A DNA stretch of 64,000 nt from an uncultured Woeseiaceae bacterium (GTDB lineage Bacteria; Pseudomonadota; Gammaproteobacteria; Steroidobacterales; Woeseiaceae): positions 1 to 64,000 of the forward strand of contig CAMYOJ010000019.1 in NCBI GenBank assembly GCA_947259985.1, given 5' to 3'. The first letter of the stretch is position 1. Every line of letters starts with the position of its first letter. Positions 20,373 to 45,186 of the stretch are shown here, in pieces. Below the pieces are notes generated by a model that was not told the DNA's origin, made no database searches, and saw nothing but the letters and a program-made list of their open reading frames with translations. The position numbers and the translations under genes were made by a program.

Positions 20373-20542
20373 TTTCGCTCGGTAACCCCGCTGTCGTAGG
20401 TAGGACCCTTAGACCGGTGGCTTTGCGACGCTGTCTTTCGACAGGTGTGCCTTTGTCATACGAGGCCTGATCGTTGCATAGTCACACCAAGCTTGCAATG
20501 AAACCGGTTCACGAAAAGTTATTCTGTTAAATTCGCAATCGA

Positions 20543-42560: not shown

Positions 42561-42836
42561 TTGCGTTTGATCAAGAGAGCCGTGCACCTGACGTACAAAG
42601 CCGCTCGCCGCGTCGTTATCGGCGTCGTCGGTGCAACGGTATTGCTGATCGGCCTTGTGATGATCGTGACGCCGGGACCGGCGATCGTTGTCGTGCCTGT
42701 GGGCCTGGCAATACTCAGTATCGAATTCACCTGGGCACGCATATGGCTCAAGCGCCTGCGCAGGTCGATCAGCAATCGCAACTCGAATAAGCGTGGTAAT
42801 CGCGCCGCCGCACACCGCCAACGCGTCGAAGACTAG
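42561..42836 (+). CDS. PGPGW-family small membrane protein
   Basis: 91 residues from the TTG at 42561, preceded by an ACGGGGA site. Two helices flank the diagnostic TPGPAIVVVPVGLAIL segment, followed by SIEFTWARIW and a strongly basic tail (RRSISNRNSNKRG). PGPGW proteins are uncharacterised inner-membrane proteins. The stop at 42836 abuts the structured region that follows. Confidence 0.7.
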   Translation: MRLIKRAVHLTYKAARRVVIGVVGATVLLIGLVMIVTPGPAIVVVPVGLAILSIEFTWARIWLKRLRRSISNRNSNKRGNRAAAHRQRVED

Positions 42837-42912
42837 AAAAGAAAAGGCGCCGGAGAGCTGAATCCTTGATCAATACAGCGGGCCGATCCGACACGGAGCG
42901 GTCTCCGGCGCC
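42836..42912 (-). terminator. long-loop terminator of the predicted sigma-54 transcript
   Basis: On the minus strand, GGCGCCGGAGA (42902-42912) pairs with TCTCCGGCGCC (42846-42856) as an 11-bp stem and is followed by a T-rich tract, TTTTCTTTTC, at 42836-42845. The loop is 45 nt. On the plus strand no T-run follows, so it is directional and would end transcripts arriving from 43248. Confidence 0.65.
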
Positions 42913-42920
42913 CAAGCTAA

Positions 42921-43039
42921 CGGCAGGGGGGGTGCCGCCGGGCCTTCCAGGGCCCGTTTCGGCCGGAATCCAGTCCGGCCTTGCCCGGTGGTGCCGCCAG
43001 GTCGTCAGGGGGAGAGAGACCTGGCCGGCTTGCCGCCGG
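42921..43039 (-). ncRNA. five tandem hairpins, predicted structured RNA
   Basis: Five perfect stems follow the peptide reading frame on the minus strand. They are (in forward coordinates) 43025-43039 (5-bp arms), 42997-43024 (7-bp), 42961-42980 (7-bp), 42940-42955 (5-bp) and 42921-42937 (5-bp). The two hairpins at 42961-42980 and 42940-42955 have six-base loops reading CTGGAT and CTGGAA on the minus strand, so both expose GGA, the core of CsrA/RsmA sites. The segment is very GC-rich and holds no gene that I can support. It may be a regulatory 3' untranslated region or a small RNA with its own function. Confidence 0.5.
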
Positions 43040-43052
43040 GTAAAGCAACGCC

Positions 43053-43205
43053 TTACTCGGCGTCGGTAAGAGAGATGCGGTCGTGAATCTCGATATCAAG
43101 GTTCGTTTCGGCCGCGAAAGCCGAGCTCGCCGCGGTGGAGACGCCGATCAATACGATCAGTGCGGCCACGAGGGTAAGACCGTTTTCAATGTGTTTGCTC
43201 TTCAT
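43053..43205 (-). CDS. 50-aa secreted peptide precursor
   Basis: This short gene lies divergent from the sigma-54 activator. It encodes a signal peptide (about 1-31: ENGLTLVAALIVLIGVSTAA, with cleavage expected after AFAA) and an 18-residue mature peptide, ETNLDIEIHDRISLTDAE, which is acidic with two Ile/His-rich turns. The ATG at 43205 follows an AAGGACAG ribosome-binding region. A -24/-12 promoter lies about 50 bp upstream. No homologue is recognised. It could be a signalling peptide, or the reading frame may be a short upstream element of a structured RNA. Confidence 0.55.
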   Translation of the reverse strand: MKSKHIENGLTLVAALIVLIGVSTAASSAFAAETNLDIEIHDRISLTDAE

Positions 43206-43253
43206 GATTCTGTCCTTAGAGGTTAATAGTAAAAGATTTAACGCTATGGCTAG

Positions 43254-43276
43254 CTAATTGCACAATGCGTGCCAAC
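43254..43276 (-). promoter_or_regulatory. sigma-54 (-24/-12) promoter
   Basis: On the minus strand the sequence TTGGCACG-CATT-GTGCA differs from the sigma-54 consensus only at the first T of TTGC. The GG (at 43272-43273) and GC (at 43260-43261) dinucleotides are separated by exactly 10 bp, as required. It predicts a start near 43248, about 43 nt before the peptide ATG at 43205. Confidence 0.75.
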
Positions 43277-43320: not shown

Positions 43321-43374
43321 TAACGGAATTTCGTAAGTAACGAAATTCCGTTATGTTATTTACGAATTTTCGTA
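43321..43374. promoter_or_regulatory. upstream activating palindromes of the sigma-54 activator
   Basis: TAACGGAATTTCGT (43321-43334) and ACGAAATTCCGTTA (43340-43353) are perfect 14-bp arms with a 5-bp spacer. A second palindrome, TACGAATTTTCGTA (43361-43374), follows 7 bp later. Both share the half-site TTTCGTA/TACGAAA. They sit about 75-125 bp upstream of the predicted sigma-54 start site, the usual enhancer distance, and end 12 bp before the activator's own start codon, so they may also serve autoregulation. Confidence 0.7.
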
Positions 43375-43386
43375 TATCATCGCGGC

Positions 43387-45186
43387 GTGATCACCCAGGA
43401 CGACTATCAATGGCTGTTTCGCAAGGCCCCGGTCATGGCGACCTCGATTGCCGAGGACGGCGTCTATCTCGATGTCAACGACACGATGCTGGAGCGACTG
43501 GGCTACCAGCGCGACGAGATGGTCGGACGGCGGCCCGAGGAATTTGCGACGCCCGACAGCGCGAAACGCGTTGCCGAGGAATTGCGCCCGGCCCTGCGCC
43601 GTATGGGCAAGCTCGAAAACAAGCCGGTCAGCCTTGTCGCCCGCTCGGGGGAAGTCGTCGACTGTGTGACGAACGCGTTCATCGAGTTTGACCGCGAAGG
43701 CGAGTTCCTCAGGACAGTGGCAATGTATGCCGAGGTCTCGGATCAGGCCAGGGTCAACTTCAAGTACCGCACGCTCTACCGCCACACGCCGGCCATGTTG
43801 CACACGGTCGACGACGATGGGTTGATTGTGACCGTCACCGATCACTGGCTGCAGAAACTCGGTTATTCACGTGAGGAGGTTGTCGGTCGCCCGATTACCG
43901 ACTTCTTCAGCGCGGCCGACCGTCGCCTGTATGTGGACGGACGGCTCCAGGAAACCATCCGCGAGGGCGGTTTCAACAACCTCAAGCGCCAGATGGTGAC
44001 AAAAAACGGCAAGGTTATTGACCTTGTCATGTCCGCGATCGCACACCGCGACGCCAGCGGCAAAGTTGTTAACATGCTGGTGGCGTCGAAAGACGTGACC
44101 GAGCGCAATCGCGCCGAGCGCGAGCTGCGGCGCACGCTTGCCGAAAACGCGCGACTGCGCGAGGAACTCGAGCTCGAGCGCGACTACCTGCGTGAAGAGG
44201 TCAACGTCGCGATGAATTTCGGCCGTATCGTCGGCACGAGCTCGGCGTTAAGACGCATGCTGAAGCGTGTCGAAGCCGTTGCAAGTACTCCGGCCACCGT
44301 ACTTGTGCAGGGAGAATCCGGTGTCGGCAAGGAACTGATCGCGCATGCTATCCACGTTCGTAGCCCGCGTGCCGACAACGCACTGGTCAAGGTCAACTGC
44401 GCGTCGATTCCCAAGGAGCTGTTCGAGAGCGAGTTCTTCGGCCACGCGAAGGGCGCATTCACGGGCGCGCACCGTGATCGAATCGGCCGTTTTCAGCTCG
44501 CCGATGGCGGCACGATTTTCCTCGACGAGGTCAGCGAGATCCCGTTCGAACTGCAGGGCAAGCTGCTGCGCGTACTGCAGGAGAGCGAGTTCGAACGAGT
44601 CGGTGAGGACGTAACCCGGTCTGTCGACGTGCGTGTTATCGCGGCTACGAATCGCAACCTCGAGCGACTGATTGTCGATGGCGAATTCCGCGAAGACCTG
44701 TTCTACCGACTCAGCGTCTTCCCCGTCGATGTGCCGCCTTTGAGGGAACGCGGTGAGGACATTGTGCAGCTCGCGCAGAATTTCCTCGAGCAAACCTGCA
44801 AGGACTTTGGACGCGATGTGCTGACGTTGACACGAGCGCAGACCGAGATCCTGCGCGGTTACCGCTGGCCCGGTAACGTGCGTGAGCTCAAGAACGTAAT
44901 CGAACGGGCCGTCATCCTGTCGCCGGGCAAGGTACTTCGCCTGGACCTTTCAATGCCGGACCTTGCGGCCGACAGCGGGCCTGGCGCGGCCGTGGCCAGC
45001 GGCGACGAGGGCATCCTTACCGAAAAAGCGATGAAGGAATTTCAGAAAACGAATATTGTCAGAGCACTCAAGCAAGCCAACTGGCGCGTGTCGGGTAAAG
45101 GTGGCGCCGCGGAGTTACTCGGCGTGCGCCCAACCACGCTCGCCGATCGAATTCGTACCTACAACATCAAACGGCCGTCAAGATAA
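43387..45186 (+). CDS. PAS-PAS-AAA+-Fis sigma-54-dependent activator
   Basis: 599 residues from the GTG at 43387. Two PAS domains (about 1-120 and 125-240) form the sensor part; there is no receiver domain. A coiled-coil (about 240-272) links to the AAA+ domain: Walker A GESGVGKE (309-316), GAFTGA (356-361, the sigma-54 contact loop), Walker B TIFLDE (376-381), and WPGNVREL (494-501). A Fis-type helix-turn-helix ends the protein (about 566-594). The sensed signal is unknown. The direct neighbour is a divergent peptide gene with a -24/-12 promoter, presumably its target. It is followed at once by the TVP38 gene, with no gap. Confidence 0.92.
   Translation: MITQDDYQWLFRKAPVMATSIAEDGVYLDVNDTMLERLGYQRDEMVGRRPEEFATPDSAKRVAEELRPALRRMGKLENKPVSLVARSGEVVDCVTNAFIEFDREGEFLRTVAMYAEVSDQARVNFKYRTLYRHTPAMLHTVDDDGLIVTVTDHWLQKLGYSREEVVGRPITDFFSAADRRLYVDGRLQETIREGGFNNLKRQMVTKNGKVIDLVMSAIAHRDASGKVVNMLVASKDVTERNRAERELRRTLAENARLREELELERDYLREEVNVAMNFGRIVGTSSALRRMLKRVEAVASTPATVLVQGESGVGKELIAHAIHVRSPRADNALVKVNCASIPKELFESEFFGHAKGAFTGAHRDRIGRFQLADGGTIFLDEVSEIPFELQGKLLRVLQESEFERVGEDVTRSVDVRVIAATNRNLERLIVDGEFREDLFYRLSVFPVDVPPLRERGEDIVQLAQNFLEQTCKDFGRDVLTLTRAQTEILRGYRWPGNVRELKNVIERAVILSPGKVLRLDLSMPDLAADSGPGAAVASGDEGILTEKAMKEFQKTNIVRALKQANWRVSGKGGAAELLGVRPTTLADRIRTYNIKRPSR

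Follow-up and report, generated by a model that had tools for sequence, protein, structure and literature searches.

Organization of the locus

The window analysed here is a stretch of 64,000 nucleotides from an uncultured Woeseiaceae bacterium (contig CAMYOJ010000019.1, positions 1 to 64,000), in which a small peptide gene, a series of hairpins and a divergent regulator gene were found side by side. The features referred to below are:

42561..42836, plus strand: gene of a PGPGW transmembrane protein, convergent, ending at the RNA end (ORF; PF09656, 1.1e-18)
42836..42845, minus strand: T-rich tail TTTTCTTTTC (sequence)
42846..42912, minus strand: branched terminator with the 11-bp stem GGCGCCGGAGA/TCTCCGGCGCC (fold)
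42921..42937, minus strand: HP4, stem CGGCA/TGCCG, loop of seven C (fold; CCCC in 66/68 relatives)
42939..42956, minus strand: HP3, 6-bp stem CGGGCC/GGCCCG, loop CTGGAA (fold; covariation; GGA in 43/68)
42961..42980, minus strand: HP2, 7-bp stem GGCCGGA/TCCGGCC, loop CTGGAT (fold; covariation; GGA in 52/68)
42984..43040, minus strand: HP1, outer stem CCCGG/CCGGG, inner stem CCAGGTC/GACCTGG (fold; covariation)
43004-43017, minus strand: C-rich loop of HP1, TCTCTCCCCCTGAC (CCCC in 68/68)
43053..43205, minus strand: 50-aa peptide with a signal/TM-like N-terminus and the C-terminus LDIEIHDRISL (ORF; relatives in 29 other genomes)
43259..43275, minus strand: sigma-54 promoter TTGGCACGCATTGTGCA (-24/-12) (pattern match; conserved in relatives)
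43323..43334: palindrome ACGAAATTCCGT, proposed activator site (ACG-N6-CGT, kept in related loci)
43340..43351: palindrome ACGGAATTTCGT, proposed activator site (ACG-N6-CGT, kept in related loci)
43361..43374: palindrome TACGAAAATTCGTA, proposed activator site adjoining the activator's own start (ACG-N6-CGT, kept in related loci)
43387..45186, plus strand: divergent activator with PAS domains and a sigma-54 AAA+ domain (ORF; PF00158, 1.9e-69; PAS; AAA_lid_14)

Read along the minus strand, the sigma-54 promoter (43275-43259) is followed by the peptide gene (43205-43053) and by HP1 to HP4 with the 11-bp terminator (43040-42836), the hairpins forming the 3' part of the implied transcript behind the peptide gene. 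A sequence-only reading had placed the stems at 42836-43052 and left the strand unsaid; they were found at this position, on the minus strand, and its estimate of an implied transcript of about 415 nt agrees with the 413 nt between position 42836 and a sigma-54 start assumed at 43248. From this arrangement we infer that the stretch represents the 3' half of one sigma-54-dependent transcript, on which peptide and RNA would be co-transcribed.

Two sets of relatives were compared. A search with the peptide (MKSKHIENGLTLVAALIVLIGVSTAASSAFAAETNLDIEIHDRISLTDAE) gave matches at E ≤ 1 in 37 of 60 genomes, of which the 30 best loci (a single locus from each genome, with the window among them) were taken for study and the weaker matches left out; the peptide alignment comprised 22 chosen relatives and the window peptide. 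For a query with the N-terminus of the activator, the best 80 of 85 loci were taken. One of these, L153 (Aerophobetes, activator with 29% identity), was dropped, and the activators of the other 79 are 55–83% identical and come from sequences labelled Woeseiaceae, Woeseia or more broadly. According to the covariance model described below, promoter, ORF and RNA follow each other in this order in 28 of the 30 peptide loci, and the same holds for most of the 68 activator-query loci in which the model finds the element, the choice of ORF being doubtful in a few.

Structure and covariation of the RNA

On the single sequence, the number of stems alone is weak evidence, since the window element holds three perfect local stems of at least 6 bp and 56 of 1000 shuffles of this GC-rich stretch reach that count. 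The minus strand folds with an MFE z of -3.36 (0 of 200 shuffles as stable) and the plus strand with an even lower z of -4.42, so that folding energy gives no choice of strand. Over 68 relatives the mean z was -3.86 (40 shuffles each), with values under -2 in 61 of them.

A covariance model built from nine peptide loci recovers 28 of the 30 peptide loci (L015 and L030 are missed) and a single copy in its own genome. Among the 28 loci, 95.9% of cells were paired compared to 82.6% after shuffling (0/500), 19 of 26 pairs had changed on both sides compared to 9.3 (0/500), and sliding the partners by 1 to 3 columns reduced pairing to at most 52.5%. Similar values were obtained for the 68 sequences, for which the shuffles leave relatedness in: here, 95.5% of cells were paired (78.5% shuffled), 264 cells with a double change still paired (shuffled mean 61.9), 19 of 26 pairs showed a double change (14.5 shuffled) and the covariation score was 0.456 (0.145 shuffled), in each case with 0/500 shuffles reaching the observed value. 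The alignments behind both counts were fitted to the covariance model and lean towards it, and the two sets are not independent, as nine of the 28 loci trained the model and many contigs are common to both. Single-sequence folds of the 68 relatives, which are independent of the model in folding, returned at least 60% of the pairs of inner HP1 in 66, of HP2 in 56, of HP3 in 66 and of HP4 in 59 of the 68 sequences.

The support is distributed unevenly over the hairpins. In the 68 sequences, changes on both sides affected all 11 modelled pairs of HP1, all five of HP2 and three of the six of HP3; none of the four pairs of HP4 changes on both sides, which hardly supports or refutes this stem. A MAFFT alignment alone misplaces HP2 and the outer stem of HP1, and RNAalifold on this alignment recovered inner HP1, HP3 and HP4, missed HP2 and proposed a different small helix at the outer strand of HP1, with double-sided changes in 5 of its 22 pairs. 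In paired cells, G-U outnumbered A-C by 80 to 23 in the 68 sequences and by 28 to 7 in the smaller set, an excess which fits transcription of the minus strand, the strand to which the alignment was fitted. The varying lengths of the C runs and the compensating stems would further speak against a coding explanation. Covariation across relatives was the check named in the sequence-only reading, and the compensatory changes are present; the comparison supports a structured, conserved RNA downstream of a peptide gene with a conserved sigma-54 site.

The 11-bp stem of the terminator encloses CCG-C-TCCG TGT CGGA-T-CGG and a second small helix and is thus not a simple hairpin; a simple terminator scan did not include it among its calls. 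The 23-nt inner motif of this terminator is found a single time in the genome with up to three mismatches allowed, and among relatives its sequence is strongly conserved. Covariation of the branched terminator is weak (6 of 24 pairs; 93.1% paired compared to 91.0% shuffled) because its sequence hardly varies. By eye, several members carry a plain terminator in place of the branched one. An additional hairpin, CCGGGCCTTGCCCGG, is inserted between HP1 and HP2 in L013 and L101.

The activator and the control region

The divergent gene encodes a protein in whose sequence the GAFTGA motif could be read. A Fis-type HTH is weakly indicated (HTH_8, 0.00041, 20.5 bits, under the 22-bit cut-off), and none of the 11 families matched is a receiver domain. 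The control region was scored in 76 of the 79 activator-query loci (L109, L135 and L145 were left out). Between promoter and activator gene the window has three ACG-N6-CGT palindromes, and such sites number at least two in all 76 loci and at least three in 69 of them.

The promoter TTGGCACGCATTGTGCA differs by one base from TGGCACN5TTGC. Scanning the window for the sigma-54 pattern at two mismatches gave 63 matches compared to a chance mean of 66, so that a single promoter match is by itself no evidence; the evidence lies in its conservation. A sigma-54 site was present upstream of the peptide in all 30 peptide loci, and the pattern was found in 74 of the 76 scored activator-query loci, L097 and L140 showing a variant by eye. 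An rpoN gene is present in the genome.

The activator-proximal palindrome merges at 43361-43387 with a TATA-like element which ends about 6 bases before the activator start codon, an arrangement also seen by eye in loci of the peptide set. The activator may be leaderless and autorepressed.

Occurrence among relatives

When run on 296 genomes of the order, the model had matches at E ≤ 0.1 in 62: 57 of the 63 from the same genus, 3 of at least 17 genomes belonging to other genera of the family, and 2 from another family. The match in G157 (E 0.048) lacks the locus context altogether and was rejected as spurious. The match in G207, assigned to another family, lies on a 6.2-kb contig that seems identical to that of L074 and whose activator is 83% identical; this contig may have been misbinned or transferred. 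Among 369 genomes of the class, only two matches, both from this genus, were obtained with strict filters that distant members could escape.

In 68 of the 79 activator-query loci, the model places the element next to this divergent PAS-PAS-sigma-54 activator, always upstream of the activator gene and on the other strand. As for the remaining 11 loci, the contig of L127 ends before the element, and the other ten (L131, L136–L140, L142, L143, L146 and L150), missed by the model, show the C-rich hairpin HP1 by eye. Several of these keep more than HP1; L137 appears as a reduced member, and L140 and L142 seemingly retain HP1 alone. A crude pattern for the C-rich motif was found in 69 of 76 loci, and the seven misses comprise L127 with its contig end, L131, where the motif was seen by eye, and five loci that are model matches.

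The peptide

Peptide length ranges from 30 to about 100 residues across the 68 loci, the long forms having LDI-like and TS-like C-terminal ends. At least 12 of the 68 loci (L112 included) have the peptide down to a hydrophobic stretch of 30–37 codons and retain the RNA; in this survey, the ORF choice is wrong or doubtful in some loci, L102, L106 and L112 among them. Inspection of L106 (2240-2800) by eye revealed a peptide ORF apparently without a stop, reading into the RNA. The peptide C-termini of L131, L136, L138 and L143, which represent a divergent branch, are near-identical (LDLDIRLIGPTSVK(I/V)A), and the exported part of the peptide in this branch looks to be under selection, unlike the eroded forms elsewhere.

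Conserved loops and the CsrA and CrcZ analogies

The most constant parts of the loops are runs of C. HP1 carries CCCC in 68 of 68 sequences, as CUC(U/C)CCCC in 60, and HP4 in 66. An extra run of CCC or longer, coinciding with the beginning of HP1 or lying immediately ahead of it, was found in 48 of 68; at this place, the window's sole CCC belongs to the outer stem of HP1 itself. GGA is displayed by the HP2 loop in 52 and by the HP3 loop in 43 of the 68 sequences, and the counts of both C runs and GGA exceed all 2000 shuffles of the unique loops, which leave relatedness in. In the divergent members L131, L136, L139 and L143, the HP4 loop contains a run of C that gives way to a run of U (for example, CCCCCCUUUUUU in L136).

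The sequence-only reading had pointed to the GGA loops as a hint of CsrA/RsmA binding and, by analogy, to sigma-54-driven CrcZ-like RNAs. CsrB/RsmZ have many GGA hairpins, and CrcZ-type RNAs have repeated CA motifs. A decoy titrating CsrA/RsmA via HP2 and HP3, or an mRNA controlled by CsrA, would be in line with the GGA counts above every loop shuffle and with the two CsrA-family genes in the genome. The GGA is, however, absent in 16 (HP2) and 25 (HP3) of the 68 sequences, ANGGA occurs in 18 and 0, respectively, and the HP3 loops without GGA (GAAAC, GUAAC, AUGAA and UCGAU, among others) would equally suit a need for stable loops. Moreover, only two hairpins are concerned, as opposed to the many conserved (A)NGGA hairpin loops of CsrB/RsmZ, and the C runs of HP1 and HP4 would be left unexplained. 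CsrA as the leading idea is thus weakened, because GGA is imperfectly kept and the C runs are nearly invariant, and we regard this explanation as distinctly unlikely; CsrA binding to HP2 and HP3 could operate in addition to pairing by the C-rich loops. As for a CrcZ-like Hfq/Crc sponge, the only part of the analogy that held concerns its control: the sigma-54 promoter (74/76 loci), the palindromes and the activator domains predict activation by an enhancer-binding protein, and an hfq gene is present. In contrast, the defining CA motif AANAANAA was found neither in the implied transcript nor in any of the 68 core elements (0 and 0/68), which makes such a sponge highly improbable.

Relation to known RNAs

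RNAs with C-rich loops, RNAs derived from 3' UTRs and dual-function RNAs have all been described before. The 6C RNA of Actinobacteria has hairpin loops with six C and resembles the Woeseiaceae RNA in its C-run loops, albeit in another phylum; we know of no sigma-54 link or peptide for 6C RNA, nor of a peptide linked to the Cuckoo / alpha-r14 RNAs. The latter group is discussed below together with GlnZ, a 3' UTR RNA of the glnA mRNA, and glnA has a sigma-54 promoter. The Woeseiaceae RNA shares GGA loops with CsrB/RsmZ, from which it differs by its few and imperfectly kept GGA sites, and a sigma-54 promoter with CrcZ, from which it differs by the lack of CA motifs.

Among tested systems, sX13 of Xanthomonas comes nearest, an intergenic RNA of 115 nt with three stem-loops bearing apical C runs of 4C, 4C and 5C (PMC3771888). 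It acts on G-rich motifs near translation starts, and its regulatory effect is reported to depend on both the C-rich loops and the G-rich motifs of the targets but not on Hfq; compensating mutants failed to restore regulation (PMC3771888). The Woeseiaceae RNA likewise has stem-loops with apical C runs, and, unlike the intergenic sX13, it follows a peptide ORF under a sigma-54 promoter (PMC3771888). In the Cuckoo / alpha-r14 RNAs, including NfeR1 of Sinorhizobium, hairpins repeat an anti-Shine-Dalgarno loop and stems vary in a similar way, with CCUCCUCCC as motif in place of the CUCUCCCCC of the Woeseiaceae RNA; NfeR1 is repressed by NtrC, whereas a switch-on by a sigma-54 activator is proposed here (PMC10746234). 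GlnZ also resides at an mRNA 3' end, and its parent mRNA is induced under nitrogen limitation; it is an Hfq-dependent RNA with a conserved seed that is released by RNase E, in contrast to the structured C-rich loops and the tiny peptide ORF of the Woeseiaceae RNA (PMC9731577).

Eleven of the 30 peptide loci were compared with Rfam and gave no match at E ≤ 1. For sX13 and 6C as Rfam families, the window gave no match to a curated model at gathering score, which bears on sX13 only if the library contains it; the sole Rfam match listed in the window at this score is a c-di-GMP-I riboswitch at 20378-20461 (minus strand, 75.5 bits). No small RNA of Woeseiaceae was found in the literature, of which the part naming Woeseia oceani was judged in part, by title, and a Woeseiales transcript study made no mention of the terms searched. 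In the part of the literature covered, we did not meet these kinds of RNA joined to both a linked sigma-54 PAS activator and a peptide undergoing erosion. Woeseiales (JTB255) make up 1–22% of the 16S sequences retrieved from marine sediments (PMC7082342).

Proposed function and alternatives

We propose a sigma-54-switched dual transcript, which would provide a membrane or exported peptide together with a C-rich-loop base-pairing RNA working like Xanthomonas sX13, and we consider this reading to stand at an even balance between right and wrong. The activator would sense a signal via its PAS domains, bind the palindromes and, together with RpoN, switch on the promoter at 43275-43259. The resulting transcript of about 410 nt would encode the small peptide, destined for the membrane or beyond, and continue into the four hairpins and the branched terminator. 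Its RNA part, acting either within the mRNA or cut out of it, would expose the C-rich loops of HP1 (CUCUCCCCC(U)GA) and HP4 (CCCCC), which would most likely base-pair with other mRNAs in G-rich regions around the translation start and so repress them, in the manner of sX13. In line with a C-rich-loop sRNA, at least two stable and conserved hairpins display C runs in their loops (HP1 in 68/68, HP4 in 66/68).

An alternative option is a 3' UTR acting in cis only, which would protect the mRNA from decay or bind Rho or cold-shock proteins, without base-pairing targets. The position of the element directly 3' of the peptide ORF and the lack of a convincing trans target in our searches would agree with this, and C/U-rich single strands suit Rho and cold-shock proteins. 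On the other hand, the loops are more conserved in sequence than stability would require, and loci whose peptide has shrunk to 30–37 codons still retain the RNA; a role restricted to cis is consequently regarded as unlikely, albeit worth considering. From the stem count, which shuffles also reach, one could have suspected hairpins formed by chance, or else a repeated mobile element in this GC-rich gap, but the covariation, the single copy of both the core and the terminator motif in the genome and the fixed place beside the activator leave this option almost negligible.

Based on the proposed dual transcript, a wider role is conceivable, which we put forward tentatively and hold to be possible rather than probable: a Woeseiaceae-wide riboregulator, by which one PAS sensor would set both envelope and post-transcriptional outputs. 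In such a system, a single sigma-54-switched transcript might deliver an exported membrane peptide and a C-rich-loop RNA reprogramming the translation of many mRNAs, and in some lineages, where the peptide would have eroded to a bare transmembrane helix, the RNA might be the main product. The element itself offers a testable handle, consisting of the activator, its palindromes, the promoter and an RNA whose pairs and loops are supported, and it would extend control by C-rich loops to a system coupled to a sigma-54 sensor and a peptide.

Candidate targets

The pairing of the C-rich loops with G-rich start regions of other mRNAs is kept at about one half, because the target searches yielded no convincing target. 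The pattern GGGGGAGAG-N2-11-ATG, searched in 40 genomes, had 0 occurrences in the own genome and showed no excess in the genus, with 26 occurrences (two of them the same site) in 25 genomes compared to 21 occurrences in 15 genomes from the order's other families. The reversed-pattern control gave 6 and 3, respectively, and since the excess over this control is common to genomes outside the family, it reads as ordinary ribosome-binding sites. At up to two mismatches, TCAGGGGGAGAGA has 21 sites in the own genome, one of them opposite the RNA gene itself, compared to 13 for the reversed control.

The best-placed candidate is a Crp/Fnr-family gene of the same genome (L198, 1500-1524) with UCAGGGGGAG eleven bases before the start, ten bases of which are complementary to the HP1 loop. 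The protein had 15 further matches in 60 genomes. Nine of the 15 starts were unreadable, and GGGG within 25 bases of the start was present in one of the six readable relatives (L222) and absent in L210, L211, L213, L214 and L216, a weak negative for this candidate.

By eye, the ribosome-binding sites of hfq and the two csrA genes showed no GGGG; one csrA gene has GGGG about 31 bases upstream and the other further up. A transporter-like gene of this genome (L197) carries AGGGGAGAGA at its ribosome-binding site, with a GTG start about 2 bases after ACAAGGGGAGAGA, and this AGGGGAGAGA is possibly another match to the HP1 loop.
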